A DNA stretch of 64,000 bases. Origin: Branchiostoma floridae (lineage: Eukaryota; Chordata; Leptocardii; Amphioxiformes; Branchiostomatidae). The position numbers were made by a program, and so were the translations under genes. Where the stretch lies: assembly GCF_000003815.2 (NCBI RefSeq), contig NC_049980.1, forward strand, positions 18,280,089 through 18,344,088, written 5' to 3'. The notes under the pieces were generated by a model. It searched no databases and was not told the origin of the DNA. It was given only the letters and a program-made list of their open reading frames with translations. This document shows, one piece after another, positions 1 to 46,644 of this stretch; within the stretch, counting starts at the first letter, position 1; every line of letters starts with the position of its first letter.

Positions 1-208
1 CATTTCTACGTTGATCAAGCTTTCAACATTTATACATGATATGCTAATTACGGGACTTAAAATGGCCTTTGATATTCTGTGAATTCAAGAGGTAATTTTC
101 AAATATGGGAATCTTCATAATTTCTCAAGTAAAATAAGGCTAGTAGTCAAATGTTAAGCACTTGACACATCACTGTTCATAGATAATGAACAAGAATGTA
201 GCACACAC

Positions 209-867
209 CTGTATTTCCACCTCCTACAATGGTGTAAGTCTTCCCAGACCCAGTCTGACCATACGCAAACACAGTGGCATTGTATCCCTCAAAACAGCTG
301 TGGACGAGCGGCTCCACAATCTTGCTGTATGCTTCATCTTGAGACGTTTTGGATGTCAACACGTGGTCGAACGTGAAGGCACGGTCCTTTCCAAGAACCA
401 GCTGGTTTGCACCTGGTATCACACGCACGCACACCTATTGATGCAGCAAACAACGGAAGTAGTCAGTTGAAAATTTTTCAGATGCATACAGTATAGGGCT
501 GCCATAAGGATTACAAGATTTAGGGCTTTGTTGACTCAAACAAAAATTTTGCTGCCTAATCATTTTTGATGTGATATCTCAAGTTACTAGTAGATCATAA
601 GCAAAGTTGTGAACTGGCCAGGTCATATCCAGCAGTTTAAGGTATAGGGTACAGGATGTTCCGATCATTGCAAGGACACCACGATGCCTACATTATCTAT
701 CCTGGGTGACATCCCAGTTACCTTTCTGTTCAAAACTAACTAGTTCTAAGATATAAACCCATCAGCTATGGATGAATGTTTCAGACCTGGTGATTATGTA
801 GACGCTCCCTGGGAAGAAGTGGTCTGACTCTGACTGCAACCCGTACTGGCACTTCTGGACCCTGCAT
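209..867 (-). CDS. KIF27/KIF7-like kinesin motor, exons 1-2 (copy A, partial)
   Basis: N-terminal motor-domain exons of a kinesin-4 family member of the KIF27/KIF7 (Costal-2) type. In vertebrates and flies these proteins act in Hedgehog signalling and ciliary function. Coding exon 1 (787..867) encodes 27 residues starting MQGPEVPVRVAVRVRPLLPR and ends in phase 0. Exon 2 (209..434, 226 nt) encodes about residues 28-102 and carries the ATP-binding P-loop GQTGSGKT at about 86-93. Splice sites are canonical: a CAG-type acceptor near 892 for the ATG exon, an AATAG acceptor before 434 and GTGTGT donor after 209. The LHNHQ/VCVRVIP junction sits where KIF27 has the same wording, which is why I prefer KIF27/KIF7 over KIF4. 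Later exons lie left of the window, so the gene is incomplete here. It is head-to-head with MRPL39. Confidence 0.85.
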
Positions 868-2218
868 GTCTGATTCTTCTGAATATCCCAACCTGCAGTT
901 TTTATGTCACAGTCTAGCAAAACAAGAGACAAAAAAGCAATCATTGTTAGGATAATGATAGTGAAAATCCACAAATACCAAAAAAATTATGATCCATGTC
1001 ATCTTATATAGGATCTTATTCTTAATGATATGATTATTCTTTCACCAATTTATATACTAGTATATGAATTGCAATCATGCATTAATTTGTCAAGTAATCA
1101 ATAAAATGGCCAACCAGCTATACCCTGACCGGTAGTACCTCTTGAAACTCAAGTTTTTTGCTAGTCCATCATATTTTGCAATACTTGCCAAACAACTTTA
1201 ACATTTGCTAAATATGATTATTATAAATGCTAATCAATATTAGATATATTAAGGTATGTTTACATGCAAAAGTAACCTGGGGGGGGGGGGGGGTGGCTGG
1301 AAATTTGAGCGACTTACAATACTTTTGTATACTGACAAAAAATCAATGACAGAAGCTAGTGATACCTATTCAAATTAGAGGTGTGTGTCAAACGTCAAAA
1401 GGAAAAAGGCCATTACATTCTGCCATTGTCTTATTTTAGACATCATAAAAGGGATTTGAGGACAAATAACCAGTGATTTCCATATGTTGAGCTCATCATG
1501 CACAGTACATACATCATGTCTCTACAGAATAATGGCCCAATGTGGGTCCTCTTTTGTAGTCTGACAAAAGCTCAAACAAAGGGTATCATGGGACATAAGT
1601 CTGACTCATCATGATGACACCACATATTTTGGGCTTTTATCCGAAAATTGGTCCGAAGTACATAATAAAGAGGTTCAAAATGACCCGCATTTTACTTGTT
1701 TTCATGGGCACATTTCAAATTGCAATACTGTATTCACAATTTAAATATTTTTTATTAGACTAATGTTCAAAGTATTTGAAATTGGGTCATGTTCAGAACT
1801 AAAGGACAAGAACGTTATCCCGTCAGTCCACAGAAATACATATGAGGTGTGACTAGCTTAACAACACAAACTACTGCACGGCTTTGTACATTTTCTACCC
1901 TTGGGGGACGGGGCCGCGGGCGACTTTTTTTTAATTTCAGCTGATTGGAAAATGTTCCAACAAGACGATCCATCCAACGATGGTCAATTATTCTTAAATC
2001 TTTGCAAATTCTGTTCTTTCCGTGTTACTCTCTCACGCTTCTTATCATACTAAGAAAGTAGATGTCCCACAGAGGGGCAATAATATCGTGTAGTCAGGTC
2101 CAAGCGGTATCAACAAAGTTCTGATGCATAACAGGTGTTTCGGGCCCGCTCGAAACAGTCCCGCTCGGAAAATGGGCTTCATAATACAGGATTTACAGGA
2201 TTAAACCTCTCTACTTAC

Positions 2219-2350
2219 CTCAGTTTTCACTGATGAAGTACTCGGATGGTCTCTGAAGCGTATATTTTACCAATTCCGCCTGCCGTTAGGGGACAGACGA
2301 CAACAAAAACAGTGGCACAAACAACCAACAGTCGTCCGAGTCCGCCATGT
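2219..2350 (-). other. Probable 5' untranslated first exon of the kinesin gene (copy A)
   Basis: On the minus strand a strong donor (CTGAG|GTAAGTAGAG) ends at 2219. A short reading frame opens at an ATG at 2346-2348 (MADSDDCW...) but stops after 20 codons, so this is best read as a 5'UTR exon carrying an upstream ORF, spliced to the ATG exon near 892. The same structure is kept in copy B at 21590-21722. The transcription start is not defined by the sequence. Confidence 0.45.
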
Positions 2351-2674
2351 TGAAACTATGTCAACTACCCAAGCTGCCCTAGGCAATAGTCTAGTTTTGC
2401 AGACTTCGTATAAGATACCTAATGTTAAAATGATAGTTGAGACAAAACTTTAGCTTCCCATTCAAAACTAAAGATTATGAAACACGTTATATTAGTACAA
2501 TAATATTCAATAAGCGCAGTCATAGTAGTTAGTGAGCATCGAAGCTTTCAGCAACTGCTGATATTTGATGGCTGCGTATTTAGGCTAGTTTTACCCCACC
2601 TCGCATGCGCCGTGAACCCTGATCACCCGAGGTGGGAGGGCAGCTGGATTACAGATTAGTGGAAGTGGGTCAAA
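2351..2674. promoter_or_regulatory. Candidate bidirectional promoter, kinesin/MRPL39 (copy A)
   Basis: About 325 bp separate the minus-strand kinesin first exon from the MRPL39 ATG at 2675. A CGCATGCGC element at 2602-2610 resembles the NRF-1 core found in many nuclear genes for mitochondrial proteins, and it is conserved in copy B at 21971-21979. No clear TATA box is seen. Sharing by both genes is inferred from the head-to-head spacing. Confidence 0.4.
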
Positions 2675-4163
2675 ATGTCTCGTTTAAAATCGTTAATTGT
2701 GCCCTCTGTGAGGTGTATTGTGCATAGACGATACTGCAGCACTGAGAGGGTAACCAACGCCTTGGTCACCGAGTACAGGAACGACATTTTCGAGGAGGAA
2801 AAGCGGCGTCAGCAGGGCATGGTGCGCAGACTGGAGAAGATCGAGGTCGTTCACGTGGGGCCCAACGACCCCGGCACCTTCATCATGAACAAGAACCTGT
2901 CCACACCCTACCACTGTGCCATGCGTGAGTGCTAATCATGATATGACTGTTGTTGTAGGTCTGTTTATTACCGTCGGTAACTTGTCAACATCTCTCCCCT
3001 GAACCTACCCCCCCCCCCCAGGGTTGGTGGGGAGGGGGGTGGTGGTGGCATTCTCAAGACTTTGGTTTGTTACACAGTAGTTCCAGCTTCAGTTTGGATA
3101 AAGCATCCAATCAAGATTACTTACGCTACCTCCATGAAAAATGGAGGTTTAGTTTTTGATCTGACTCTGGACGGGCACAATCAGATACCAATAATACAAA
3201 TTAGGGGGTAGTTTGCATAGTTAATAAGAACGATGTATATTTCTGTTGTTTCCATCACATCTTTGATACATGTGGCAGGTGAGACATATCTACAGATACC
3301 AATTATATCCTTGCAAACACAAATCCTTACAGTAAATGTATTCTTTACATTAAGGATAGTGTTGTGATGATGTTATTGATTGATGATAAATTGTATGAGT
3401 TCTCTAATTTGTCACATTAACCACCTTTACAGACATCAGTGAAACCTACACCAAATACTCTGTGCTTGCCATGGTGAATGGTGAACCCTGGGACATGTGG
3501 CGACCCTTGACAGAAGACTGCGAGCTGAGCTTCGTGCGCTTCCGTGACAAGCACCCAGAGGAGGCCAACAAGTCATACTGGCGCTCATGTGCCCTGATTC
3601 TCGGAGCAGTGATGGAGACAGCATTTAAGGACACGATTTACGTACAGCTTGCTCGGGCTCTTGAACTCCCCATTATTAAGGGCATGTTTGTATACGATGT
3701 AGACTTGGGCCTGAAGGACTGGACACCAGCTAAAGATAACCTTCGTTCCCTGAGCCTGTCTGCAATCACCATGAAATCCAAGGACTTGCCATTTGAGAGA
3801 CTTGAAGTGGACCCTAGCCTGGCAATCAGGCTGTTTCAGCACAGCCAGTACAAGCAGCGTGAGGTAGAGGAAAGGGTACGGGGAGGTAGAGTTACTCTGT
3901 ACAGAATGGGCAAATTTATCGATATCCATGATGGACCAATGATGTCAAAGTCAAGTTTAGTGTCAATGTTTACAGTAGCAGGGATACATGAGCTCCCAGG
4001 TGGGCTGTACCGTGTGCAGGCTATATCCCTTCCCCATGACTTCTATCTCCACAGCAGTGTGTGGAACAAACTGGTAAAGAGGGCTAGTGTCCCCCTAGTG
4101 GGAGACCTGAGTACTGCAGGGGTAGATGAGTCATGGAGGGAGACTAAAAGTTCAGCAGCATAA
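2675..4163 (+). CDS. MRPL39: Mitochondrial ribosomal protein L39 (copy A)
   Basis: Component of the large subunit of the mitochondrial ribosome. Two exons, 2675-2924 and 3433-4163, join in phase 1 (ATG C|AC, giving CAM-H-ISE) and encode 326 aa; the human protein is about 338 aa. The N-terminus is basic and hydrophobic (MSRLKSLIVPSVRCIVHRRY), as expected of a mitochondrial import signal. Family hallmarks follow: RRLEKIEVVHVG, PGTFIMNKNLSTPYHCAM, NGEPWDMWRPL, SYWRSCALILG and KDLPFERLEVDPSLA. The family resembles the N-terminal region of threonyl-tRNA synthetase, including a TGS-like part. The donor is ATGC|GTGAGT and the acceptor CTTTACAG|ACATC. The intron starts with a C-run facing a G-rich tract. 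An AATAAA at 4325-4330 could be the poly(A) signal. The protein differs from copy B at six positions, all within about 45 residues in exon 2. Confidence 0.95.
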
Positions 4164-4678
4164 TGTTGACATCTTTTTCAAGAAACCTTGTTATGAAAGG
4201 ATTATTGTATTTGTAAGGAAGAATTATGTTTAGTAACAGTTTGCAGATACATGTGACACTTTTGTTGATAACAAGACTCCCTCTCAAGAAGGACACTTAT
4301 GATCATGTATCTCATCAAAAATAAAATAAAAAGGCTTGCTAAATAGATACAAAAACATGTACATTGTACCAGCACATAGTTTTTTTAAAAATAGAAATCA
4401 GAAAGTGTAAGTGTAAAATAGGTGCCACAATTTCACAAAGCAGCATTTCTTTATTTTGCATTGTGATGTATCAACATACCATACATGCAAGTCAGAGCTA
4501 AAACCAGGTCACTCAAATTTATTAATAAGATAAGACACAGAATTCATTTTGTATCTGGCAACTGGCAGTTTTACATGATACATGTATTCAGAAAAACACA
4601 CAAGTCACCATCTACATTTCATGATTTTGACTGTAAAAGCTGTACAACTCTTGCAATCATGATGACAGCCAGTGATAG

Positions 4679-7600
4679 CTAGTCACATATGTCTATCTTC
4701 TTGAAGCACCAGGCATTCCAGGTGTTGGGCGCCCAGGAACAGGTATTGATCTTTCGACCATCCCCACATCCATGCCTGTATGTTAAAAGATAGATAAATC
4801 AATGCATCATGATGTCAAATGATGAAAATACAGAACACAGTGCATTGCCATCACGTCCAATGTTTTCTTGGGTTTCCTTTTGTGAGTTAACAATGTTATA
4901 TAGTCTGGATGTCCAATACATGTACTTTAGCTCTTTACCAACTCAGCCTTAACTTATCAGTTACCATCTTGGACTAACACTTAAATCCTAACCTTCTAAC
5001 CCCACCCAAACCATGGCAAGTAGACCAGGGTCTTGGGCCAAGTTTGTAGGGCATCGAATTGGCTGAGCCAAGTTGGTAAAGGGCTGAATCATCCTGATCC
5101 TAAAATTCTTTCCAGAGGTTATTACAGAAAGGACTATAAAGAACAGACCAAATGTGACATGGCAACATCAAGGTCAGTTTCATGCCACAACTGACACAAA
5201 AGTGCATTTATATCTTTATCTTTTTAAAACCATAAAACTAGATGTAAGCTTGACCAACATCAACATCTCCACAGAACATAGTAGACCTATCCTTACCTGC
5301 CAGCCTGCATGGGATATCTGGATGTCCTGTCTGACAGCCAGCCACAAGAACATAGCTCCAGCCCATCCTGCCATGCCTCATACAGCTGGTGGTAGGAGGC
5401 TACACTGGCGTTCTGTTCAGCGCAGGCCTGCACTGCCTCCTCATAGTCGTACTTGTAGGAGCCAGCCGGCGAAGTTATGTGGAAGATGTGACCTGTTACA
5501 GATGATATGCTACTAAATATTTAACCATAACCATTTTATCAACCTGATCACAAATTTCAGTTATTACGGACCCATTTTCAGACATGTCGACGTCCTAACA
5601 ATTAGGCTGTTTTGAATTAGAAATAAAGCATACCAAGACTTGGCGACGTGCCACAAAGGTCGTCCTTGATTTTGGAAGCCAGGTCATCGCTCTGCGTCAG
5701 CTGACCCTGCAGTTCGGCACAGCACAGTTTGCCACTTAACGTTTGATTGACAGCTTCGTCAGTCTGTTGTTTGAGCTCACTCAGTTCAGCTTCCATAGAC
5801 GTTGTTTTCTTTGTGAGGGTCCGGATGAGCTCTGAACAGTTGAATGATAAAAACATTTCAAGCTTTACTTTTAAACCATAATGTAGTCATTGTAGTGTAC
5901 AACACTTGAACTGTTGCCATTCAGAGTCACATCGACTTAATATGAAAACTAGAGTTCCTCGAACACATATCTTCGCCAAATAAACAATTTCTTTGGAAGA
6001 TTGTTCTTTTTGAATGATTAATGTGTATAAGTCCATATGTTATCTAGTCACATGTAGTGGTTGGTTGGATTATGAACATTGTGAGTAGATTAGTCTATTC
6101 TGTTGGTGTACATAATGCAGCAAATTTTTTGGCGATGTGAATGAATGTCTTTGCATAATCAGAACAATTTGTACAGGTATGAGGTTACTGTTCTATTTTT
6201 TGTTGTCATAATTACTTTCGGAGAGCTGGTTATGTTTTGGGCAGCGTTTGTATGTATGTATGTATGTATGTTTGTATGTATGTAGAAACCAGCAAATTGA
6301 AAACCGGCTGAATAGATTGTAGTGATATTTGGTATGTGGGGTAGGTCTTGGAAACCTGGAAACCACAGGAACACGCCGATAATTGCATTCGTCACTCACC
6401 AAACCCGGCCACTGTTGGTCCTTCCAATTTACGGACCTTTTTAACTCACCAAGGGTCATCTAAGGGCCATATGTAAGGATTGCTACGACCCCCGCCTTGG
6501 TGAACGTTAGTTTCAATCTCATGAAAATAGAAAGTAAAGTTTTGCAGTCGCGAGTTAAGTCAGAGGTATTTTACAGAGTCCAAGGTTATGATTTCTGCGA
6601 CTGTCCGATGACAGCCGCCTGTCACCTTTGGCGATTTGTATTTCTCGCAATGATGTCAGTTCTTTCTAGCCGACCTTTCCCTTACAATATGACATCTCTG
6701 TTAAGAGTTGAGGAACGCGTGGATAATTGACGGTGACCCTTTTGACCTAAGTGCTGTTCTGCAACATGTTGGGTTTGTCTTGTCCCAGCACTTGGTCACT
6801 TGTTGTTTTAACCTAGTTCATAGATGTAGCTACTATGTGTTACAAGCCGTCATTGTTCAATTATGTTATATTACTAACTTTACATAGTGCTTATTCGTTT
6901 GTTTAGACCCTTGTAGTGTTACTGGCACATGGAACACCAAGTTTCCTTGCAGTCCATCATAAGAAAATACACCTGAAGTGTCTCGTAGATATTAGCTCTA
7001 CATCTTTATATCAAGTGATATTCGTCAAGTTCCCTCTACTACATTTTTACCGTTCCCATTATATAGTGTTGCTTTTATTGTTGATCTGTATATAGATATA
7101 AGCAACACTTGTATATAGATATGTTATATTTCAACTGCTATGAATCCTTTGCTGTGTGCCGTCGTATTGACATCAATTCAGCAAGCTGTTTAATTGCTTA
7201 ATCTTATAGATACGTGTTGGACACGGTCAGGCTTTGTATTTTGCTAACATGAACCATGACCATTTATAGGCATTTTTTTCAGCCAGTAATCTCTACCAGA
7301 TTCCAGCCTGGCCGAATAGTACACGGATGACCTGGTAACATCCCTGGTCAATCAGAATTTCATGCTTCCAAGACAACGTCTGTTTATCAGGGAGCCTCTG
7401 CTTCCACTGGCTCCCTTGACCTACTTCTTCTCTATTTTTAGACATCTACGGGTCGATTCAAGTCCTTTCAGGTGACTCCGTCACAAGTATTTTTCAACCG
7501 TTATAGAAGTTTCCCTAAGTAATTATATTAAATACAGAGTGATTTATATAATTTGCATCTCATTATGTTGATAATCATCCAAAGTACCTACCTACCAAAA

Positions 7601-8785
7601 ACAAAAAATATCCATCAATCCCCTCAGGAGTTATTCATTTAAAAAGTTACGAAATATAAGACCCACTGCAATTCCAAACAAGCTGCTAGGGGGCCCAAAA
7701 TTAGACCATTGACTCCTAGTACCAACAGCTATCCACCAGTAAAAAATCATGAACCTGGCACTTCTGGAAAATTTAGGCGCAAACTTTGATGCTCACTTGC
7801 AGTACCAAAACAATTTGCCAGGAGGCCCATTATCGAACTTGACCTTCCTTTCTGTGTCCCCTACCTATCAACCAAATATCATTAGCATCCATCAAGAACA
7901 TCTCGAGTTATCTTGCATACAGACAAACGCACTTACATACAAAGCCAGCTACAGCACCATATGTAAAAGGTAGCTAAACCATTCTCGCACATGACAATCC
8001 TTTCCACAACCGCTACACACCTGCCAAATATCGTGGAAATCGCCCAGCTACATTTTGACTTATGCTTCCCGAAAAAACACCAAAAAAAATACCAAGCTCG
8101 CTAATGTACCATAGGAAAACGCCAGGTAACCCATTTTCGAACTAGGCATGCCTTTTAACAACCGCTACACACCTGCAAAAAATAAAAAAGTTCCATCCAC
8201 AATTTCTCGAGTTATATCCTGTTGACCTACATACAGACCCAAGTCGGCAAAAACATAATCTTCTTGGCGAAGCTAAAAAAGCATGTCTGACCGTGGGTGA
8301 ATGAGCTGTTGTTGTTGCAAACCAAGCTGTTGTTGTTGCAAACCAAGTTATAGGGACATCCGATCACAGTCTATTGGATGTTTAAATCGTTCAATGCAGC
8401 AGCTTATGGCACATAACTTTCACTGGAAGATAGTACGCTTGACTTCTGCTCGATGAATCAGTTTGAGGTAACCGACCCTATTTCGCTGCCTGTCAGGAAA
8501 TTTCCGATGTTACCTGCGTTTGTTCTTACCCTCTTGTGCCCGCACCACTTGCTCGGTCCTACCCAGGCGTTCCAGGATGTCAGCCAAGACCCTCTGCACC
8601 AGTGCCCCGTCTGTACAGACAGTGGCTGTTCTAGGGCAATACTTCACCGTAAGGCAGTCCTCTGTCTGGCCCTCTACTTCATCTATTGCCTTTTCTTGTA
8701 CTGAGCCAGAAACGATAGCGCAGCACAGAAGGAAGGCAAGCGTTTTCAAGAAAACCCCTGTTGAAGCCATATCCATGGCTATCAC
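4679..8785 (-). CDS. Secreted coiled-coil protein with C-terminal Link (hyaluronan-binding) module, copy A
   Basis: Four exons on the minus strand (8530-8785, 5634-5831, 5297-5492, 4679-4775) total 747 nt and encode 248 aa, all joining in phase. Exon 1 holds a signal peptide (MASTGVFLKTLAFLLCCAIV) and a small cysteine-containing segment (EDCLTVKYCPRTATVC). Two ATGs lie upstream of MASTG; the inner one gives the best signal peptide. Exon 2 is a heptad-like coiled coil (ELIRTLTKK...AELSELKQQTDEA). Exons 3-4 form a Link module, about residues 152-243: HIFHITSPAGSYKYDYEEAV, ACAEQNASVAS, LYEAWQDGLELCSCGWLSD, RYPM, then GCGDG and NAWCFKK. The cysteines match the Link C1-C4/C2-C3 pattern, with some extra ones. 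Link modules of this family bind hyaluronan; whether this one does is inference. The coiled coil suggests oligomers. Confidence 0.8.
5950..8280. other. Copy-A-specific ~2.3 kb inside intron 1 of the Link gene
   Basis: Intron 1 is about 2.7 kb in copy A but only 340 bp in copy B, and both ends of the short intron still align. The extra part holds a TATG-type microsatellite at about 6248-6283 and degenerate repeats of a 'ggcccaaaat...' type at about 7670-8260, related in wording to the block at 12497-13074. It also contains a 22-bp direct duplication near 8300-8345 close to its right edge. No coding gene is recognised in it. Confidence 0.6.
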
Positions 8786-9062
8786 TGACTACGTGCTCGC
8801 TCAGTGATATATTATACGGATTGCTACGGACTGATGTTGTCATTGATCTCTGAACTTCCCAGTTACATGTAGCAATCCCGTCGTCAGTTCCTATGAGCTT
8901 CTTAGAAATGCTGTATCCATCTGTACTTTGTCTAGCCTGTGTTTACACAATCTGTCGCTGGCTGGGGTTAATGACCCCCTCCTCGCACCTGTAGGGCCGC
9001 CGCTAGGAGCGCGTCAGGCTATGCATGTTCTTTGTCAGATAAAAAGTCACACCGGGCTGAAG

Positions 9063-11652: not shown

Positions 11653-11752
11653 NNNNNNNNNNNNNNNNNNNNNNNNNNNNNNNNNNNNNNNNNNNNNNNN
11701 NNNNNNNNNNNNNNNNNNNNNNNNNNNNNNNNNNNNNNNNNNNNNNNNNNNN
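11653..11752. other. Assembly gap (100 N)
   Basis: Exactly 100 unknown bases, which is a placeholder length and not a measured one. The left side is satellite monomer; the right side is unrelated sequence. Confidence 1.
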
Positions 11753-13074
11753 GCTGCTGGCAATGGAAGCTTTGAAAAGTTCAGAAGCTGTTGTAGTCAA
11801 AGCAAACACCCAGCAAACATCCCCACAAACCAATGAGCAGTTGCTTAGAAGGGGAATTTCTTCATATATTTGCCGCGACAAAATGCAACAAACGATACTG
11901 AATTTAAAACAGAACAAAGCTAAGCCTCCACCACTTAACCCTGCCTGTACCATAGATTAAGCAGGCCCAAAAACCAAGCGAATATGACTAGCCCAAAACA
12001 ACAAATTACCTGTATACAGTATGGAAATGGCATTACCAAAGAAACAAAAAGAAACACAGGACAAATCATACACATACCTTTCTCTTATGCCCACACTCTA
12101 TACAGTTCTCCTCCACATTAGAAAATTGCATCTTCTTCTGTTTAAGTTCAAGTTCAACCATGATTGCCAACAGGGTAAAGGAACTTGTACCGGAACTTAA
12201 AACTCAGTACTATACAGCTCTAGAAACACCACAAAGAGTAATAGTCAGTTCAGTTCAGTTCATCCTTATCTGGTGACGCTATGAAGTTCTTCCATACGAC
12301 CCTGTCGCGCATGACAGACAGGAGGTCTCCGTCTTGGAGGCCAACATCTTCCTGTCAGTGCCACTAAGTAACCTGATACATTGAAGGTGGCCCAGGCCAG
12401 ATGATGGTTCTACACCCAACCATAATCTGTTTTTAAAACCAAGCAGATATTGGGAGGATGCCCCAACCACACTAAAACAGGGTCAACCTATACAGTATCA
12501 AGTTCAAGCACTAGGAGGCCCAAAATCAAACCTGACCACCAGGACACCACAAACAACTCACGTACCAAATGGCAACACAATGGCACCTTGCGTTCCGGAG
12601 ATACAGCGCACGCCCCGTGCCCGCACAAAAGGTAACCTAAAATGTCAAGTTCAAGCACCAAGGGCGCCAAAATCAAAATTGAGCATTATTCAGCCACCGC
12701 CGACACATGTGCCAAATATCATCGCGCCAGCACCAGCCGTTCAGAAGATACAATGTATAACTCCGGAAACACCCCTCCCGGACACAAAATTCGACCTGCC
12801 GGGTCAAGTTCAAACGCGACAAGGCCCAAAGTCAATCCTAGGCAACAGGCAACAACTTCCCACCCATGCATCAAAAATCGTCGCAATGGTGCGTATCATT
12901 CCGGACACACAGCGCCAAAAGTGCCCCAAAAACACCAAAAATGCCACCTTCAATGTCAAGGTCAAGCGCCAGGAGGCCCAAAATCACACCTGAGTGTCAG
13001 GCTACCACCCCCAACCCACGTACCAAAAATCGTCGTGCTCGCACCATCCGTTCACGAGATACAGCGCCCTACAT
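11753..13074. repeat. Small contig homologous to kinesin intron 2 region (16290-17406)
   Basis: From about 11875 this contig parallels 16290-17406 at roughly 90-95% by eye, with indels; for example, 12250-12365 has no counterpart. From 12497 it consists of four tandem units of about 150 bp (starts 12497, 12646, 12804, 12956), each opening with a CAAGTTCAAGC-type motif and containing GGCCCAAAATCAA and a CGTTCCGGAGATACAGCGC-like end. Long reading frames are open in all three plus-strand frames here. They follow from a stop-poor repeat and are not called as genes. Confidence 0.8.
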
Positions 13075-13174
13075 NNNNNNNNNNNNNNNNNNNNNNNNNN
13101 NNNNNNNNNNNNNNNNNNNNNNNNNNNNNNNNNNNNNNNNNNNNNNNNNNNNNNNNNNNNNNNNNNNNNNNNNN
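13075..13174. other. Assembly gap (100 N)
   Basis: Exactly 100 unknown bases between the 150-bp repeat contig and the second satellite block. Confidence 1.
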
Positions 13175-14413
13175 TATGACATACCCAAGCATAGGGGGGG
13201 CTAAAATCGGTTGCTATACGGCTTGTAGGGCAATCTGCTATTTATTTAAACGTTGCCCGTAAACTTGTAAGTGCAATTTAGATAGCGTATACCCTAACGT
13301 TTTCTAAACAAGAATCGAAACTTAGGGGCCGGATTTGTTTAATGAACTAATTGAGTTGAAGCAGTTTTTACACTGAGCCAAGGGGGGGCAAAAATCGGCT
13401 GCTAAACTGCTTGTAGAGCAATCTGCTTCTTATCTAAACGTGGCCCGTGAACTTATAAGTGCTATTTGGATAGCTTATACCCTAACGTATTCAATACAAG
13501 CATCAAATTTTAGGGGCGGGATTTATTTATTGATCTAGAGGGGAACTAAGTGATAGGATATACGCAAAAATGGGGGGGGGGGGGGGGGCATAAAATCGGC
13601 TGCTAAACTGCTTGTAGAGCAATCTACTGCTTATCTTAACGTTGCCCGTGAAGTTGTAAGTGCAATTTAGATAGCTTATACCCTAACATATTCCATACAA
13701 GTATCAAATCTTACGGGCCGGATTTTATTAATGAACTAGAGGGGAACTAACTGATGGGTCATACGCAAGCAAAGGGGGGGGGGGTTGAAATCGGCTGCTA
13801 CACTACTTGTAGAGCAATCTACTGCTTATCTAAACGTTGCCCGTGAACTTGTAAGTGCAATTTAGATTGCTTATACCCTAACATATTCAATACAAGTATC
13901 GAAACTTACGGGCCGGATTTTATCAATGAACTAGAGCGATCTAATTGATAAGAAATCGGCAAGCATAGGGGGCGCTAAAATCGTCTGCTATACGGCTTGT
14001 AGAGCAATCTGCTACTTATCTAAACGTTGCCCGTGAACTTGTAAGTGCAATTTAGATAGCTTATACCCTAACGTATTCAATACAAGTGTCAGATCTCACG
14101 GGCCGGATTTAATTAATGAACAAGAGGGGAACTAACTGATAGAAAATACGTAACCAAGGGGGGGGGCGTAAAATCGGCTGCTACACTGCTTGTATTGCAA
14201 TCTGCTGCTTATCTAAACGTGGCCCGTGAACTTGCAAGCGCAATTTAGATAGCTTATACCCTAACATATTCAATACAAGTATCAAATCTTACGGGCCGGA
14301 TTTTAGTAAAGAACTAGAGGGGAAGTAACTGATAGGACATATGCAAGCAAGGGGGGGGGGTCGGCTGCTACACTGCTTGTAGAGCAATCTGCCGCTTATC
14401 TAAACGTGCCCGG
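13175..14413 (+). repeat. Satellite array, ~190-bp monomers (right block)
   Basis: Same monomer family and same orientation as the left block, with monomer starts near 13203, 13391, 13592, 13787, 13977, 14170 and 14357. Some monomers are more diverged than in the left block. One linker holds an 18-G run near 13571-13588. Gaps lie on both sides, so true copy number and continuity with the left block are unknown. Confidence 0.97.
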
Positions 14414-14513
14414 NNNNNNNNNNNNNNNNNNNNNNNNNNNNNNNNNNNNNNNNNNNNNNNNNNNNNNNNNNNNNNNNNNNNNNNNNNNNNNNNNNNNNNN
14501 NNNNNNNNNNNNN
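14414..14513. other. Assembly gap (100 N)
   Basis: Exactly 100 unknown bases. The right side (14514 onward) is non-satellite intron of kinesin copy B. Confidence 1.
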
Positions 14514-15167
14514 GCAAAATGGCAAAGCCCTGTGTTACTTGGGCCATATCGTCTTACAGTCACTTCAAAACATGTTTTCTCTTGTGATGAAACTTGATAC
14601 ATCCTGACTAAACATTTCAGCAGTATTTAATATGCATATACACAGCAATATAATATGCTCATGCATACTTGCTTGGGAAATAGTGTCTAAAAATATACAA
14701 TTTTGGTCAGACTTTCAGTTACATGTATCTGTGACGTGAGAAATGTTTGAATGTTGAAAACAATGGAATGTCAGACTGTTTTACTCACAAAAACATGCAT
14801 TTTGACTCTTAAGAGCTACTTCATGATCTGCAATGTCAACAAAAGCCCTAGACCACTTAAATGTTGAGTAGCACTTTGTAGCACTCTCCTCTCAGCTGCA
14901 AATCTCTCTATTCAACTTCAGGGTAAATCAATGTAATTCTACCATGACCAGCTTTTCAAAACAATATCTACCTGTATCCTTTCAAAATCTGAGTCAGCAA
15001 TAAATTTATAATGTGTCTAAAATGTATCAATATCTGAATTCTGTACTTGTTTTCTACAATACCCCCTTTAGAGACATTGATAATGTGAAAAATATTTTCA
15101 AGTGAAATAAAAAACACAGAAAATACAATATGGTTATGTGCTGCTACCTTAAGTTTGAGTCCCATAC

Positions 15168-18100
15168 CTGTGTTTCCATTTTCGTCTTCCCTAATGTGCA
15201 AATCCTTGCTGGATGTTTCCAGCTCAATCAGGTCTCTCAACTCTTCCATGTACACCTCAATGTAGGAGACCAGCACTGTATAGTCAACATTATGGTTCTC
15301 CGCAATGGTGGAGAAGATCTGTTTGATGGCACGAGGGATGATACCATACTCCTCCTCTGTAATGGTGTCTGAAACACAAAAAGGGCCAAGAAAGAAATTA
15401 CAACAGGGACAGGATTTACTATCTGTACATTGTCTTGGACATTGATAACAAAGTAGAACTACTTCAAGCTAATGTTTTGATTTTTAACTGCTAGTACGTT
15501 GGATACAATGCATGAATATGTATATACAAATGTATTTAGTATACAAAAACATGGTCATAGTTGTGCGGTAAACCAATATTACCGGTAGTAACTATTACTG
15601 CTTTCTTTTAGAACTGGTATCTGACATTTTACAGCAAAATTAGAAATGCTAGGTACTACAACAAAAATTTCAATTTTTTTTTGACACTTAAGTTTCAAGA
15701 ATATGCTGCATAGACGCAATTAAGTTATTAAACAAGAGTTCGTAGACCTCAGGCCTGCATGAAATGTATTGGGTGTCTGTAGACCTATTGTGTATTTTTT
15801 TCCCTTTTTGTCCGTGTTTGCGTGGTTGGAAAATGTGCACCATGCAAAAGTCTGAAATTCCATTTTCGGAATGTGTAAGTTTGGGCATGGATGAACATTA
15901 CTTATTTTGGATTTCTTGACCATGTAACCAACCACAGTACCTTGAATTTGTTGAGACGACTTTTCCTACCTTTTTTTGTCTCAGATGGCCCTTGAAGTTA
16001 TTCTGTCACATATGATATATTCAGTACTGATATCTTCCTATTTCAATGTACTGACCTAATGCAGCTGCTAAATCTCCTTAGTGTGGCAATGATATTCATT
16101 AAAGATTTATTCCTGGAGTGCTATAACACTTGACACTGGAAGGTTATTTGCATAATTTGACCAATTAAGTTTTTACTGTACACAGTAGTTCCATAGACAA
16201 CATAGAATAGTGGTAGCCCCCATCCAGCAGCAACAGTTAGTCCCCAGGGTGGTATGATATTTTTATTCAACCATCCAACTAAAACCTAAACCTAAGTGAC
16301 AAAATGCAACAAACGATACCAAATTTAAAATAGAACAAAGCTTCTACCACTTAACCCTGTATGTACTATAGATTAAGCAGGCCCAAAAATCAAGCGACCA
16401 TGACTAGCCCCAAACTACAAATTACCTGCATACAATACGGAAATGGCATCCCCAAAGAAACAACAAGAAACACAGGAAGATAATATACATACCTTTCTCT
16501 TACACTCAAGCTCTATACATTTCTCCTCCACTTTAGAAAGTTGTATCTTCTTCTGATTGCCAAACAGGGTAAAGGAACTTGTACCAGAACTTTAAAATCA
16601 GTACTACACAGCTCTCAAAACACCACAAAGACTAAGAAGCAAACTCAAATTGTACCTAACAGCAACAGATACTAGTACAAACTGAACTGAAGTAGTACAT
16701 TATCTGGCTGGAAACACTGTTGATACAAAGTAACCTGATACATTGAAGGTGGCAGAAGCCAGTGCAAAAACAGATGACGATTCTACACCTAAGCTTAAAG
16801 ACCTATCAATCAACCCAAACCCAACCAAACCAAGCAGATATTGGGGGGATGCCCCAACCACACAAAAACAGGGTCAACCTACAGTATCAAGTTCAAGCAC
16901 TAGGAGGCCCAAAATCAAACCTGACCACCAGGACACCAGCAACAACCCACGTAACAAATAGCAACACAATGGCACCTTGCGTTCCGGAGATACAGCGCAC
17001 GCCCCGTGCCCGCACAAAAGGTAACCTGGAATGTCAAGTTCAAGCACCAAGGGCGTCAAAATCAAAATTGAGAATTATTCAGCCACCGCCAACACATGTG
17101 CCAAATATCATTGCGCCCGCACCAACCGTTCAGAAGATATAACTCCGGAAATACCCCTCCCGGACACAAAATTCGACCTGCCGCGTCAAGTTCAAACGCG
17201 ACAAGGCCCAAAGTCAATCCTAGGCAACAGGCAACAACTTCCCACCCATGCATCAAAAATCGTCGCAATGGTGCGTATCATTCCGGACACACAGCGCCAA
17301 AAGTGCCCCCAAAACACCAAAAATGCCACCTGCAATGCCAAGTTCAAGCGCCAGGAGGCCCAAAATCAAACCTGAGTGTCAGGCCACCACCCGTTCTCGA
17401 GATATAGCGCCCTAAATCCCCAGCTTCCAAATTTTCCCACGCCCATGAAAACCATACCTGCATACATGCAGGTAATCATCTAGGTACACATCTGTGAATG
17501 TAATCAAAAGTTAGGTGCATGGCTCCAATTCTGGGTGGAGAACTGTGCATAAATCATGCCTCCAATATTTCAAGCCCTACTACCCAGTATGTCATCACTT
17601 TTAGAATATCACTAAATGTAATTTATGGTTTTCAATTTCAAATATGAGTCATAGAATGGAACAACCCCTATATCAACTACCGGTAGAACATACTATTAGG
17701 CAGACAGCCGCAACTTATCACAGGCTCTGAAAGGCATAAAAAATTGATCAGAAAATTTGTTGCCCCATCTGCGTTATCCAATCTTCCTTGATACCATGTA
17801 CCTCACATCCAGTTGCTTGAGTAGCTATTTTTTGGCATATCTTATTACCTACCTGGATGTCTAACCTTCATCCACAAGTCTGTCATAATTGGTTCACTTC
17901 TAGCTATACTTTAAAGACAGTGGGTAGGGATACATGTATCATCTGGGACTGCTTTCCCATAGGAGTTATCAAATAAAGGTACCTCATGCAAAATGATGTA
18001 TACACAAGTACAAAATGTAGTACTAGCAGTACACGTATACACGTTCAAATTGTACCAAAGATTTGTCTGAGTTCCATATCATTATCATATTTCATAAAAA

Positions 18101-20195
18101 GGACAACAAGTTCTCACTTGAACAACAGAAACATTTGAAAAATACAAGAAAAGTAAATTGCATGGGCAAAATACAATCTGTAGTTTCAGACAAGACTTGC
18201 ATTATCTGTCATGTAACATAATCTATTAGTAAGTGTTTGTCACAAATAAAGGTAGTATGTTTATGAAATCATGGTTCTTAAGATTTACTGGAGCTATTAC
18301 TCAAAATGTCATGTAGACAATAAGGTATTCTCTATGGAAATGAATGATAACTATTAATGGATTATTCAGTTTAATAATACATGTCTGGTGGATAATTGGT
18401 CTCCAATGGAAAATATGAGACACTGGGCATGGATATTAATACCTTGGAATCAAACTGACTAAAATATTGGAAAAAATATGATTTCAGATCAAATATGGAA
18501 AATGTAACTTGCGATGTCACACACTCATCATTGTAGTTCTTACAATACCATGAATGATTTAGTGAAATCATCTCTTTGTTCACTAGAATTCCTTCTGTAA
18601 AAAAGGAAAACACCTGTACCTGTATTTGACAAAAATCATACATTATCCATGCATTTAACATTTCCTTTTCATGCAGACAAACAGTATGTACTAAGATGGA
18701 TAACTTGCAGAGCCCTGAGATTTACCATAAAGGTCACCAAATGGGGAAAATGGCAGAACCAATCAATAAGCAGCTTGCTCAAGTACAAGAGAGACAAAAC
18801 AAATCAATGCAATGCCTCATTTAGTCAATGAAATGGAACGTTAACACAACTGAGAGGTACATGACATATTGGAAAATGCTGTCTAAAGGTAAACTGCTAT
18901 TGCTAAAAAATACAACTTTAGTCTTAAAAACGGATCTTCTGTATTTTGAAACTCTATGAGTTCTACTAACTGAAATTTAGTCTAAATGTCAGCAATCCAC
19001 TATTTTAACAATCTGGTTTCACAACAGACTTCTGAAGTTCACATCTGCAGGCAGACTAATTTGATTACAATGTTGGATAGGCATTCTCCCATCTCATATT
19101 ACCCTTGTAAGTATTGGCACAGATTCTGTTGAAGACCTTTGAACTTTGCCAGATCCTTAAATATAAACACTGAGCCATGGAGGCTTTCAATTGAAGTAAA
19201 CATCTATGAAACACTGGGTCATTGTGCAGGTGGGTACAAACTGAAAGGCTCTCCAGTCAGTCTTTGTGCAAACAGTGTTGTTGATTATAGTAAGGCAGTG
19301 GCACCATAAATACTGGCTGGACAAGTACATTTCTATGTTGATCGAGCTTTCAACATTTATATATGAATAATGACGGGACTTAAGATGGTAACAATGGCAA
19401 TCGATATTCTGAGAATTAGGTAATTTTTAAATATGGGAATGTTTCATAATTACTCCAGCACAACAAGGGTAGTCAAATGTTAAGCACTTGACACATTAAT
19501 CATATAGATAATGAACAAGAATGTAGCACACACCTGTATTTCCACCTCCTACAATGGTGTAAGTCTTCCCAGACCCAGTCTGACCATACGCAAACACAGT
19601 GGCATTGTATCCCTCAAAACAGCTGTGGACGAGCGGCTCTACAATCTTGCTGTATGCTTCATCTTGAGACGTCTTGGATGTCAACACGTGGTCGAACGTG
19701 AAGGCACGGTCCTTTCCAAGAACCAGCTGGTTTGCACCTGGTATCACACGCACGCACACCTATTGATGCAGCAAACAACGGAAGTAGTCAGTTGAAAATT
19801 TTCCAGATGTATACAGTATAGGGCTGCCATAAGGATTACAAGATTTAGGGCTTTCTTGACTCAAACAAAAATTTTGCTGCCTAATCATTTTTGATGTGAT
19901 ATCTCAAGTTACTAGTAGATCATAAGCAAAGTTGTGAACTGGCCAGGTCATATCCAGCAGTTTAAGGTATAGGGTACAGGATGTTCCGATCATTGCTATG
20001 ACACCACGATCATGCCTACATTATCTAGCCTGGGTGACATCCCAGTTACCTTTCTGTTCAAAACTAACTAGTTCTAAGATATAAACCCATCAGTTATGGA
20101 TGACTGTTTCAGACCTGGTGATTATGTAGACGCTCCCTGGGAAGAAGTGGTCTGACTCTGACTGCGACCCGTACTGGCACTTCTGGACCCTGCAT
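15168..20195 (-). CDS. KIF27/KIF7-like kinesin motor, exons 1-3 (copy B, truncated)
   Basis: Coding exons 20115..20195 (27 codons), 19534..19759 (226 nt, P-loop GQTGSGKT) and 15168..15368 (201 nt) join in phase. The third exon reads TITEEEYGIIPRAIKQIF, then VDYTVLVSYIEVYMEELRDL and DLHIREDENGNTG. This is the part of the KIF27/KIF7 motor domain following the P-loop exon, and it confirms the family. The acceptor is TTTTTGTGTTTCAG and the donor ACACAG|GTATGGG. No later motor exon (switch I, switch II) is seen between 15168 and the gap at 14513, and satellite lies beyond, so this copy is cut off as assembled. Intron 2 (15369-19533) holds the 150-bp repeat block. Exons 1-2 differ from copy A mostly at silent sites. 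Confidence 0.88.
16290..17406. repeat. Repeat block with four ~150-bp tandem units, inside kinesin intron 2
   Basis: Homologous to the small contig at 11753-13074. Tandem units start near 16888, 17035, 17187 and 17339 (spacing 147-152 bp). The part before the tandem units also has its counterpart. Plus-strand frames stay open through the units but have no recognisable protein, and the block lies inside an intron on the other strand. Confidence 0.75.
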
Positions 20196-21589
20196 GTCTG
20201 ATTCTTCTGAATATCCCAACCTGCAGTTTTTATGTCACAGTCTAACAAAAAAGAGACAAAACGCAATCATTGTTAGGATAATGATTGTGCAAATCCACAA
20301 ATACCAAAAAAAATTATGATCTTTGTCATCTTATATAGGATCTTATTCTAAATGATATGATTATTCTTTCACCAATCTATATACTAGTATATCAATTGCA
20401 ATCATGCATCAATTTGTCAAGTAATCAATAAAATGGTCAGCCAGCTATACCCTGACCGGTAGTACCTCTTGAAACTCAATTTTTTTGCTAGTCTTTGAAT
20501 GGCTATTCAGTCTATGATGTTTTGCAATACTTGCCAAACAACTTTAACTTTTGCTGAATATGATTATTATAAATGCTAATCAAAATTAGATGTATTAAGG
20601 TAAGTTTACATGCAAAAGTAACCCTGGGGTTGCTGGAAATTTGAGCGACTACAATACTTTTGTATAATGACAAAAAATCAATAGAATAATATAATGTCAA
20701 TGACAAAAGCTAGTGATACCTATTCAAATTAGAGGTGTGTGTCAAACTTGCAAACTGGAAAAGGCCATTACATTCTGCCATCGTCTTATTTTCGAGATTT
20801 TATGACAAATAACCAGTGATTTCCATATGTTGAGCTCATCATGCACAGTACATACATCATGTCTCTACAGAATAATGGCCCAATGTGGGTCCTCTTTTGT
20901 AGTCTGACAAAAGCTCAAACAAAGGGTATCATGGGACATAAGTCTGACTCATCATGATGACACCACATATTTTGGGCTTTTATCCGAAAATTGGTCCGAA
21001 GTACATAACAAAGAGGTTCAAAAATGACCCTCATTTTACTTGTTTTCATGGGCACATTTCAAATTGCAATACTGTATTCACAATTTAAATATTTTTTATT
21101 AGACTAAATTCAAAGTATTTGAAATTGGGTCATGTTCAGAACTAAAGGACAAGAACGTTATCCCGTCAGTCCACAGAAATACATATGAGGTGTGACTAAC
21201 ATAACAACACAAACTACTGCACGGCTTTGTTCAGGTGTGTCCACATTTGCGTTACATTTTCTAACCTTGGGGGACGGGGCCGCGGGGCGACTTTTTTTTT
21301 ATTTCAGCTGATTGGAAAATGTTCCAACAAGACGATCTATCCAACGATGGTCAATTATTCTTAAATCTTTGCAAATTCCGTTCTTTCCGTGTTACTCTCT
21401 CACGCTTCTTATCATACTAAGAAAGTAGATGTCCCACAGTGGGGCATGCAATAATATCGTGTAGTCAGGTCCAAGCGGTATCAACAAAGTTCTGATGCAT
21501 AACAGGTGTTTTGGGCCCGCTCACAACAGTCCCGCTCGGAAAATGGGCTTCATAATACCAGATCTACAGGATTAAACCTCTCTACTTAC

Positions 21590-21722
21590 CTCAGTTTTCA
21601 CTGATGAAGTACTCGGATGGTCTATGATGCGTATATTTTACCAATTCCGTCTGCCGTTAGGGGACAGACGACAACAAAAACAGCGGCACAAACAACCAAC
21701 AGTCGTCCGAGTCCGCCATGTT
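21590..21722 (-). other. Probable 5' untranslated first exon of the kinesin gene (copy B)
   Basis: Same structure as 2219-2350: an ATG at 21718-21720 opens a 20-codon upstream ORF, followed by a GTAAGT donor whose exon ends at 21590. Conservation of the uORF and donor in both copies is the only support. Confidence 0.45.
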
Positions 21723-21723
21723 G

Positions 21724-22051
21724 AAACTATGTCAACTACCCAAGCTGCCCTAGGCCATAGTCTAGTTTTGCAGACTTCGTATAAGATACGTAACGTTTAA
21801 AATGTTAGCTGAGACAAAACTTAAGCTTCCCATTGAAAACTACAGGTTAGTAAACACATTGTATAAGTTCAATAATATTCAATAAGCGCAGTCATAGTGG
21901 TTAGTGAGCATCGAAGCCTTCATAAATTCCCATTTTATACCTGCGTATCTAGACTAATTTATCCCCACATCGCATGCGCCGTGACCCGGGTACCCCTGAT
22001 CACCCAAAGTGGGAGGGCGGCTGGATTACAGATTAGTGGAAGTGGGTCAAA
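21724..22051. promoter_or_regulatory. Candidate bidirectional promoter, kinesin/MRPL39 (copy B)
   Basis: Counterpart of 2351-2674. The NRF-1-like CGCATGCGC is kept at 21971-21979, but the surrounding 21880-22020 region is more diverged from copy A than the coding exons are. Confidence 0.4.
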
Positions 22052-23543
22052 ATGTCTCGTTTAAAATCGTTAATTGTGCCCTCTGTGAGGTGTATTGTGC
22101 ATAGACGATACTGCAGCACTGAGAGGGTAACCAACGCCTTGGTCACCGAGTACAGGAACGACATTTTCGAGGAGGAAAAGCGGCGTCAGCAGGGCATGGT
22201 GCGCAGACTGGAGAAGATCGAGGTCGTTCACGTGGGGCCCAACGACCCCGGCACCTTCATCATGAACAAGAACCTGTCCACACCCTACCACTGTGCCATG
22301 CGTGAGTACCTCTGCTAATCATGATATGACTGTTGTTGTAGGTCTGTTTATTACCGTCGGTAACTTGTCAACATCTCTCCCCTGAACCTACCCCCCCCCC
22401 CCCAGGGTTGGTGGGGAGGGGGGTGGTGGTGGCATTCTCAAGACTTTGGTTTGTTACACAGTAGTTCCAGCTTCAGTTTGGATAAAGCATCCAATCAAGA
22501 TTACTTACGCTACCTCCATGAAAAATGGAGGTTTAGTTTTTGATCTGACTCTGGACGGGCACAATCAGATACCAATAATACAACTTAGGGGGTAGTTTGC
22601 ATAGTTAATAAGATTTATATTTCTGTTGTTTCCATCACATCTTTGATACATGTGGCAGGTGAGACATATCTACAGATACCAATTATATCCTTGCAAACAC
22701 AAATCCTTACAGTAAATGTATTCTTTACATTAAGGATAGTGTTGTGATGATGTTATTGATTGATGATAAATTGTATGAGTTCTCTAATTTGTCACATTAA
22801 CCACCTTTTCAGACATCAGTGAAACCTACACCAAGTACTCTGTGCTTGCCATGGTGAATGGTGAACCCTGGGACATGTGGCGACCCTTGACAGAAGACTG
22901 CGAGCTGAGCTTCGTGCGCTTCCGTGACAAGCACCCAGAGGAGGCCAACAAGTCATACTGGCGCTCATGTGCCCTGATTCTCGGAGCAGTGATGGAGACA
23001 GCATTCAAGGACACGATTTATGTACAGCTTGCTCGGGCTCTTGAACTCCCCATTATTAAGGGCATGTTTGTATACGATGTAGACTTGGGCCTGAAGGACT
23101 GGACACCAACTAACGAAAACCTTCGTTCCCTGAGCCTGTCTGCAATCACCATGAAATCCAAGGACTTGCCATTTGAGAGACTTGAAGTGGACCCTAGCCT
23201 GGCCCTCAGGCTGTTTCAGCATAACGAGTACAAGCAGCGTGAGGTAGAGGAAAGGGTGCGGGGAGGTAGAGTTACTCTGTACAGAATGGGCAAATTTATC
23301 GATATCCATGATGGACCAATGATGTCAAAGTCAAGTTTAGTGTCAATGTTTACAGTAGCAGGGATACATGAGCTCCCAGGTGGGCTGTACCGTGTGCAGG
23401 CTATATCCCTTCCCCATGACTTCTATCTCCACAGCAGTGTGTGGAACAAACTGGTAAAGAGGGCTAGTGTCCCCCTAGTAGGGGACCTGAGTACTGCAGG
23501 GGTAGATGAGTCATGGAGGGAGACTAAAAGTTCAGCAGCATAA
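22052..23543 (+). CDS. MRPL39: Mitochondrial ribosomal protein L39 (copy B)
   Basis: Two exons, 22052-22301 (250 nt) and 22813-23543 (731 nt), encode 326 aa, with the same phase-1 junction as copy A. Exon 1 looks identical to copy A at the nucleotide level. Exon 2 differs by six amino acids (A/T, K/N, D/E, I/L, S/N, Q/E), with the first three around WTPTNENLRS and the rest around LALRLFQHNEYK. The AATAAA present after copy A is absent here because the stretch shortens to 'aaaaatcaaaagg', so a different poly(A) site would be needed. This copy sits in the contig that carries the downstream FATP genes. Confidence 0.95.
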
Positions 23544-23942
23544 TGTTGACATCTTTTTCAAGAAACCTTGTTATGTTAGGATTATTTTGAGGAAGAATTA
23601 TGTTTAGTAACAGTTTGCAGATACATATACATGTGACACTTGTGATCATGTATTTCATCAAAAATCAAAAGGCTTGCTAAAGAGATCCAAAAACATGTAC
23701 AATGATGTGTAAAACGGGTGCCACAATTTCACAACGCAGCATTTCTTTATTTTGCATTGTGATGTATCAACATACCATATGTGCATGTCAGAGTTAAGAC
23801 CAAGATACAGAATTCATTTTGTATGTTGCAACTGGCAATTTTACATGATATTCAGAAAAACACACAAGTCACTATCTACATTTCATGATTTTGACTGTAG
23901 AAGCTGCACAACACGCAGAATCATGACGATAGCCGATGATAG

Positions 23943-25535
23943 CTAGTCACATATGTCGATCTTCTTAAAGCACCAGGCATTCCAGGTGTTGGGCGCCCAG
24001 GAACAGGTATTGATCTTTCGACCATCCCCACATCCATGCCTGTATGTTAAAAGGATGGATAAATCAATGCATGAAGATGTCCAATGATGAAAATATCAAA
24101 TACAGAACACAGTGCATCGCCATCACATGTCCAATGTTTTCTTGGGTGTTCTTTTGTGAGATAACAATATTATATAGTATGGGTGTCAGATACGTATACT
24201 TCAGCTCTTTACCAACTCAGTCCTTAACTAATCAGTTACCATCTCGGACGAACACCCTAACCTAAACCCTGCTAAGTTGACCAGGTTCTTGGTCCGAGTT
24301 TGGTATTGAGTTTGGTATTGACTGAGCCAAGTTGGTAAAGGACTGAATCATCCTGATCCCTTGTAAAAGTCTTTCCAGAGGAACATATCAGACCTATCCT
24401 TACCTGCCAGCCTGCATAGGATATCTGGATGTCCTGTCTGACAGCCAGCCACAAGAACATAGCTCCAGCCCATCCTGCCATGCCTCATACAGCTGGTGGT
24501 AGGAGGCTACACTGGCGTTCTGTTCAGCGCAGGCCTGCACTGCCTCCTCATAGTCGTACTTATAGGAGCCAGCCGGCGAAGTTATGTGGAAGATGTGACC
24601 TGTTTAGATGATAGCATGCTTTAAACATAACCATGGGGGCACTACATCAACCTGATCACAACCACAAATTTCCATTATTACAGAACAATTTTCGGACATG
24701 TCCTAACGCTTAGGCTGTTTTGAATTAGAAGTAAAGCATACCCAGACTTGGCGACGTGCCACAGAGGTCGTCCTTGATTTTGGAAGCCAGGTCATCGCTC
24801 TGCGTCAGCTGACTCTGCAGTCGGGCACAGCACAGTTTGCCAGTTAACGTTTGATTGCCAGCCTCGTCAGTCTGTTGTTTGAGCTTACTCAGTTCAGCTT
24901 CCATAAACGTTGTTTTCTTTGTGAGGGTCCGGATGAGCTCTGAACAATTGAATGATAAAGCATTTTCGAGATTTAGTTTTAAATCATATGATATAGTGTA
25001 CAAAACTTGCATTGTTATACCATACAGCCAAATTGACTTACATGGAAAAAAATCGTATCTGACCGTGAATGTAAACATTGTTGCAAACCTAGTTATAAGG
25101 ACAGCAATCTATTGGGTTGTGTGAGTCGTTCTGTGCAGCAGCCTATCGCACATACATGTAACTTGCACTGGAACATAGTGCGCGTACTGACTTCTGCTCG
25201 ATGAATCAGGTCGGGGTAGTCGACCCCATTTCTTCGCCTTTCAGTAAATTTCCAATACTTGCCCCGCGTTTGTTCTTACCCTCTTGTGCCCGCACCACTT
25301 GCTCGGTCCTACCCAGGCGTTCCAGGATGTCAGCCAAGACCCTCTGCACCAGTGCCCCGTCCGTACAGACAGTGGCTGTTCTAGGGCAATACTTCACTGT
25401 TAGGCAGTCCTCTGTCTGGCCCTCTACTTCATCTAGCACCTTTTCTTGTACAGAGCCAGAAACGATAGCATAGCACAGAAGGAAGGCAAACGTTTTCGAG
25501 AAAACCCCTGTTGAAGCCATAGCCGTGGCTATCAC
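23943..25535 (-). CDS. Secreted coiled-coil protein with C-terminal Link module, copy B
   Basis: Exons 25280-25535, 24742-24939, 24404-24599 and 23943-24039 have exactly the lengths of copy A (256, 198, 196, 97 nt) and encode 248 aa. The signal peptide (MASTGVFSKTFAFLLCYAIV), coiled coil and Link module are all intact. Changes relative to copy A concentrate in the signal peptide and coiled coil (for example L/S, L/F, C/Y, AI/VL, E/K, V/G, E/R). The Link exons are almost unchanged, which suggests constraint on the binding module. Intron 1 is only 340 bp. The Link module predicts a glycosaminoglycan-binding, extracellular role; that is inference. Confidence 0.8.
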
Positions 25536-25785
25536 TGACTACGTGCTCGCTCAGTGATATATTATAAGGATTGCTACGGACTGATTTTGTCATCGATCTC
25601 TGAACTTCCCAGTTACATGTAGCAATCCCGTCGTCAGTTCCTATGAGCTTCTTAGAAATGTATCCATCTGTACTTTGTCTAGCCTGTGTTTACACAATCT
25701 GTCGCTGGCTAGGGTTAATGACCCCCTCCTCGCACCTGTAGGGCCGCCGCTAGGAGCGTGTCAGGCTATACATATTCTTTGTCAG

Positions 25786-26553
25786 GCTGGGATGGTTCAT
25801 CTAAAAGTGAACCAATCGAATCACGGGCAACCTGTAGTTTGCATTTAATACCTTTGCTCGGATCGGGTCAATCTACGGTTAACGATGTGCTGGCTGGTGA
25901 GACGTTGTTGTAACTAGAGACTGTTTTAAGTTAAAATTTATTACACTAAATCATTTTTATTCTTCAAATGACCATGGCTGTTATAAGTCAGGACGTACTC
26001 GTGGGTAAAAGCAGTACAAATATACCTCTGCTCAAAACAGCTGTGCATGTGAGTCAATAGCATGAAGAGGGAACCAATAAACAACACTTTAATAAGAAAG
26101 CAACCTTAGTGTCAACTTTAAAGTTAAGGCCCGATCAGCATAGGGAAACTTCTCTAAAGCGATATACATGTATGTACCGTTTACCATAGAGGTTTTATGT
26201 ACCGTTTACCATAGAGGTTTAAAAACCCTTCTATTTTACGATCACTTTGATTTCCCTTGCTTAATCTTGCTAGACTCCACTGAGAGTTGTAGTCACTGCT
26301 ATAGCTGAACCAAAACCATCCATTCTTTCTTCTATCTTTTTTTGTTGTTGTTGTTCTGGTGATTTCCATTCATTCTTCCCACTCATACAGGAACCTTGTT
26401 TCATGAAACACAGGTAGGAGGCTCGGAGGTCAAGAAGGCTCATCAAACAAGACCTGGTGAATGAATAACCGGCACAAAGTGGGTCAAAAGGCACGTATGA
26501 TACTCCAGCACCGACCCTGTATCCTGGCCTTAGTATAGAAACCTGAGGTGAAC
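25786..26553. other. Intergenic, Link gene to FATP1
   Basis: This is the divergent spacer between the minus-strand Link gene and plus-strand FATP1, and likely holds the FATP1 promoter. A 26-bp direct duplication (TACCGTTTACCATAGAGG core) lies at about 26170-26223. No gene is recognised. Confidence 0.5.
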
Positions 26554-46544: not shown

Positions 46545-46644
46545 NNNNNNNNNNNNNNNNNNNNNNNNNNNNNNNNNNNNNNNNNNNNNNNNNNNNNNNN
46601 NNNNNNNNNNNNNNNNNNNNNNNNNNNNNNNNNNNNNNNNNNNN
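46545..46644. other. Assembly gap (100 N)
   Basis: Exactly 100 unknown bases, followed immediately by a C-run, suggesting that assembly failed at the homopolymer-rich inverted repeat. Confidence 1.

Follow-up and report, generated by a model that had tools for sequence, protein, structure and literature searches.

The window analysed here, a stretch of 64,000 nucleotides of the Branchiostoma floridae genome (C2:18280089-18344088, in an assembly of 513,431,437 bases and 431 contigs), carries in its left part a block of three genes found in two copies, A and B. The first of these is a kinesin gene on the minus strand, whose coding exons 1 (787..867) and 2 (207..434) were recognized in copy A from open frames and splice signals and whose coding exon 3 (-2417..-2211) lies outside the window, negative coordinates being counted leftward from the window start. 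The motor piece of this gene matches PF00225, and its best PDB matches are KIF4 and KIF7. MRPL39, on the plus strand, is complete within the block, with two exons at 2675..2924 and 3433..4163 in copy A and at 22052..22301 and 22813..23543 in copy B; its best PDB matches are mitoribosomal mL39. The third gene, again on the minus strand, has a Link domain (PF00193) encoded at 5296..5496 in A and 24403..24603 in B, and a first exon (8522..8770 in A) with a signal-peptide-like start; its product is predicted to be extracellular. Exon limits were judged by eye, with open frames and splice signals as guides; those given for copy B were placed from matching frames, and for MRPL39 a comparison with human MRPL39 was used in addition. 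To the right of copy B stand AMP-binding genes of the FATP type and, further on, an open frame at 50499-51200 that matches PF01094, the receptor-family ligand-binding region (E 9.9e-28).

Self-alignment of the window, extended by 100 kb to the left and right (264 kb in total), upheld the claim of an earlier, sequence-only reading that the three-gene block is present twice in the assembly, and gave it a greater extent than first noted. Copy A, whose first 3,063 bases precede the window and fall in locus L012, ends at 9038; copy B occupies 14514 to 25785, and its first base is also that of its contig. Within the window, A 1-5118 matches B 19328-24381 at 90.4% identity, gaps counted, A 5274-5939 pairs with B 24381-25040 and A 8333-9038 with B 25078-25785. 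Inclusion of the left flank extends the match to A -3063..-1869 with B 14514..15732 and A -1870..5118 with B 17474..24381. Apart from two A-only stretches (2,384 and 156 bases), copy A aligns to B almost in full (9,554 of 9,562 bases). As that reading had it, the copies sit in separate contigs, the gap at 11653 bounding contig A and contig B starting at 14514, and they lead to different neighbours: the rest of the kinesin gene is reached only through copy A, since frames past the third delimited exon occur to the left of A only (the nearest ends at -3376, approximately 0.3 kb past the point where B starts), and the FATP-type genes are reached only through copy B.

The differences between the copies had been described as small ones plus a single 2.3-kb indel. 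Small differences do abound, with 67 indels totalling 428 bases inside the four alignable blocks, and the 2.3-kb indel is present; it proved to be a dispersed repeat inserted in A only (5946..8279). Of 3,352 candidate matches to it, 40 were scored, and these gave 39 other places at 96-98% identity, including two that are clearly partial. It is not the only large indel, however, for a second one of 1.74 kb (15732..17473) is a dispersed repeat that B has and A lacks. A genome search with 14514-19327 returned, among the 40 scored of 2,045 candidates, 14 near-full-length relatives of this insertion at 90-95% identity and many partial ones. Together with an A-only tandem array that starts at 9051, these insertions make up three large differences between A and B, all of them repeats; for an additional A-only stretch of 156 bases (5118..5273) no origin was found. 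In B. belcheri, recent transposable element insertions have been credited with 65-77% of large polymorphic indels (PMC4284660). Such insertions being, on that account, usual between lancelet haplotypes, the nature of the large differences favours the view that A and B are haplotypes of one locus.

Between the copies, the interval 9038-14514 comprises 12 bases of no assigned origin, the tandem array, a fragment mostly related to a dispersed repeat and three gaps of exactly 100 N (11653..11752, 13075..13174 and 14414..14513). A fourth such gap in the window opens at 46545, and the cluster of three belongs to a total of eight in the 264 kb. Two small contigs lie between the gaps. The one at 13175..14413 (plus strand) carries the same array as 9051-11652 in identical orientation. 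In the other (11753..13074), positions 11877-12241 (82%) and 12363-13010 (89%) are akin to the B-only dispersed repeat and the remainder, some 300 bases, is unmatched; its use as a locus-specific bridge is thus not supported. Around these eight gaps, the sole further match across a gap of at least 250 columns spans 691 columns with an identity of 66.7%, between places 96 kb apart. No other high-identity duplication across a gap was seen in the 264 kb, which gives the haplotype reading no local base rate to lean on and counts against it.

Unbroken sequence across the seam, as expected of a true tandem pair, is not found in the window, where the three gaps interrupt it, and no duplication breakpoint is visible at either copy limit, the right limit of A lying 12 bases before a transposon and the left limit of B coinciding with a contig edge. 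These observations bear on the possibility that a recent tandem duplication is real and has become fixed in the species, a block of approximately 12 kb having been duplicated in place and the transposon forming the spacer between the copies. Such an event would agree with the order in the assembly as it stands, and its seam might sit within the gaps; a true duplication so placed would likewise leave no visible breakpoint, a point to be held against the haplotype reading. We nonetheless regard a fixed duplication as very improbable: it shows no breakpoint, and only by coincidence would its age give the same divergence as that between two alleles.

The array at the end of copy A had been taken for a satellite between the copies. 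This description, and with it the notion of a spacer or centromere-like block, had to be given up, as the array occurs in inverted pairs with common termini at several places; the segment 9051..11652 (plus strand) is instead the left arm of a foldback-type transposon, built of tandem units of ~193 bp, inside which contig A ends. A search with 569 bases of the array produced 107 candidates, and the 39 that were scored contained 224 matches; the matches listed form inverted pairs on several chromosomes. Seven left ends, six elsewhere and that of the window, all start A|CCGGGCTGAAG, and four right ends all bear its complement. The family thus combines inverted tandem-repeat arms with common termini, as foldback elements do, the window itself holding the left end (9051) only. 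Paired copies were located at C4:11286033-11295828, C9:17763020-17772404, C2:3047176-3050964 and C1:29404630-29408539, with spans of ~9.8, 9.4, 3.8 and 3.9 kb, respectively; the ends of these copies were read, and both ends at each locus presumably belong to one element. Partial copies contain six open frames of at least 90 amino acids without N runs, three of them in L061 and a single one in each of L054, L055 and L062.

In architecture the family resembles Tetris, a foldback element of Drosophila virilis reported to have tandem units of ~220 bp in inverted arms and target duplications of 8-9 bp in its complete copies (PMC4079207). Both have inverted arms of roughly 200-bp tandem units (~193 bp here), and the target duplication flanking one paired lancelet copy, that on C4, is an exact one of 8 bp (8/8). 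Unlike complete Tetris copies, a second paired copy (C9) has 7 of 8 bases duplicated and those at C2:3047177 and C1:29404631 have none. A literature search with limited terms brought up, among the papers listed, no Branchiostoma title on a foldback or satellite-armed transposon. The family could be the origin of a dispersed satellite. N runs were present at six of the nine other array loci fetched (L054, L056, L057, L058, L060 and L061, as opposed to L052, L055 and L062), a count that leaves out the window's own loci L051, L053 and L059; the family thus tends to break the assembly.

The match between A and B stops 12 bases short of the element (9038 vs 9051). Among at most 2,000 random segments, 384 do as well as these 12 bases in alignment to B, which is no better than chance; B as an exact empty site of the transposon was accordingly not supported, a point against the haplotype reading. 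We note also a 64-column match at 84% identity between positions 8950-9011, in the flank of the window element, and L055:2642-2705, in sequence beyond the end of an element copy on C1. Foldback elements such as Galileo are described as causing rearrangements by ectopic recombination, which is a point in favour of a fixed duplication. It may also be imagined that a real tandem duplication, only about as old as two alleles of one locus and seeded by the adjacent foldback transposon, doubled the Link-domain gene and the complete MRPL39, and that the assembly broke exactly at the seam; this we consider very improbable. An exchange between two elements would leave a second transposon arm outside the block, yet none lies on either outer side within the 264 kb, and unequal exchange between transposon copies is thus not supported.

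Substitutions in the successive alignable blocks amount to 44/1,180, 243/6,781, 70/658 and 55/699, giving 412/9,318 (4.4%) overall. The two main blocks stand at 3.6-3.7%, and values near the Link-domain gene reach 7.9-10.6%; among noncoding sites, 373 of 7,191 (5.2%) are substituted. The copies are near-identical, with a divergence near the level of alleles, as in false heterotype duplications. For comparison, B. floridae parents were estimated by k-mers to be ~3% heterozygous (PMC12862219), and a heterozygosity of 3.2-4.2% has been given for sequenced lancelets (PMC12500494). The main blocks agree with these values, and the noncoding mean lies somewhat above the published mean, raised by the right end of the block. 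Both this excess and the high values around the Link-domain gene speak against the haplotype reading. Divergence is also patchy, ranging from 0 to 46 differences per bin of 200 noncoding sites, with a variance-to-mean ratio of 11.3 that none of 5,000 shuffles reached, although the high-divergence bins are possibly inflated by misalignment near indels. The longest identical stretch covers 461 noncoding sites and ends at A -410 (in L012, beginning ~871 and stopping 410 bases ahead of the window); shared recent ancestry, conversion and constraint are candidate causes. The patchiness as a whole could reflect alleles of unequal age along a recombining chromosome or, alternatively, conversion between true tandem copies.

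Coding differences were counted gene by gene. MRPL39 shows 8 synonymous and 6 nonsynonymous differences in 325 sense codons, one junction codon being skipped (dS 0.038, dN 0.008). In the Link-domain gene, the first exon has 5 nonsynonymous and 6 synonymous differences, a coiled-coil-like middle exon (5656-5835 and its B partner) 7 and 2, and the Link exon 0 and 2. The three delimited kinesin exons differ by 3 synonymous and no nonsynonymous changes in 172 codons, an outcome with a chance of ~0.05 if one lineage had been free to change and of 0.01 if both had. A fixed duplication would have left B with only these first three delimited exons, and the want of nonsynonymous change in such a fragment weighs weakly against it.

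Taken together, it is very likely, from the sequence as assembled, that the block represents a false heterotype duplication, in which two alleles of one locus from a highly heterozygous diploid, most probably the Florida lancelet reference animal, were kept as two contigs and placed in succession. Two retained haplotypes had already been put forward in preference to a true duplication, and this choice is now strongly supported: the divergence is allele-like, the match begins at the first base of contig B and ends in A only at the transposon that holds the contig end, and the copies are separated by mostly repeats and 100-N gaps. The published assembly method points in the same direction. The B. 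floridae assembly was made from one diploid animal, with haplotypes assembled apart, merged with HaploMerger2 and scaffolded with HiRise (PMC7269912), and its 19 chromosomal scaffolds hold 94.5% of the assembled sequence (PMC7269912). Haplotype A would have carried the foldback-type element just to the right of the Link-domain gene, and contig A would have ended there because the tandem-repeat arm could not be assembled. Contig B would stem from the haplotype lacking the element and continue to the FATP-type genes. HaploMerger2 may then have left the contig end overlap of ~12 kb in place, and HiRise may have ordered A, the two small repeat fragments and B one after the other, such that each chromosome would carry at this locus a single kinesin-4-like gene, a single MRPL39 and a single Link-domain gene. 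Most likely, the duplication appears in the assembly because a transposon full of repeats interrupts one of the two parental versions.

A duplication real on some chromosomes only would be a copy-number polymorphism, and more than 1,000 lancelet genes have been reported to show presence-absence variation (PMC12373286). The present evidence gives no separation between this and a fixed duplication, and the same objections apply to both; in addition, the other haplotype of the locus would have to have been merged away, and a genome-wide search with positions 1000-2000 of the window found two places in total and no more. That count, which also favours the haplotype reading, is together with the search using 14514-19327 the basis for the copy number given here. 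We consider such a polymorphism exceedingly improbable.

Two haplotypes placed end to end would conform to the false heterotype duplications of Ko et al. (2022), in which alleles of a heterozygous region come to stand as paralogues in a haploid assembly, on one scaffold and separated by gaps (PMC9516828). Gaps between copies are named there as a known mark, and three 100-N gaps part the copies within one scaffold here. In the same account, Sanger-based assemblies had the most false duplications, and 7 to 24% of the total lay on the same scaffold (PMC9516828). Proof in that study came from read depth at half the usual level, from read pairs that were discordant and from one-copy k-mers (PMC9516828), unlike the present case, which was judged from the assembly sequence; also unlike those cases, the trigger here seems to have been a transposon arm in one haplotype.

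The duplicated block is probably an assembly error rather than a new gene duplication; it is ordinary as biology and a useful warning to anyone counting genes in this assembly. Gene catalogues drawn from this assembly may count MRPL39 and the Link-domain gene twice and carry a truncated kinesin model. More generally, young tandem pairs in highly heterozygous genomes are suspect when a gap of unknown size separates their members. The FATP-type genes of contig 14514-46544, a true tandem pair with no gap between its members, served as a control: 816 of 7,362 bases align, in five short pieces, across gene spans that were set by eye. This suggests as a rule of thumb that suspected alleles align across introns and differ by repeat insertions, whereas a true tandem pair of the same contig aligns in short pieces only. 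Among the FATP-type tandem genes, those compared at 26539-27321 and 34204-34794 have a first exon 90.4% identical over 343 bases and other common pieces at 73-78% identity, a pattern that resembles gene conversion of the first exon.
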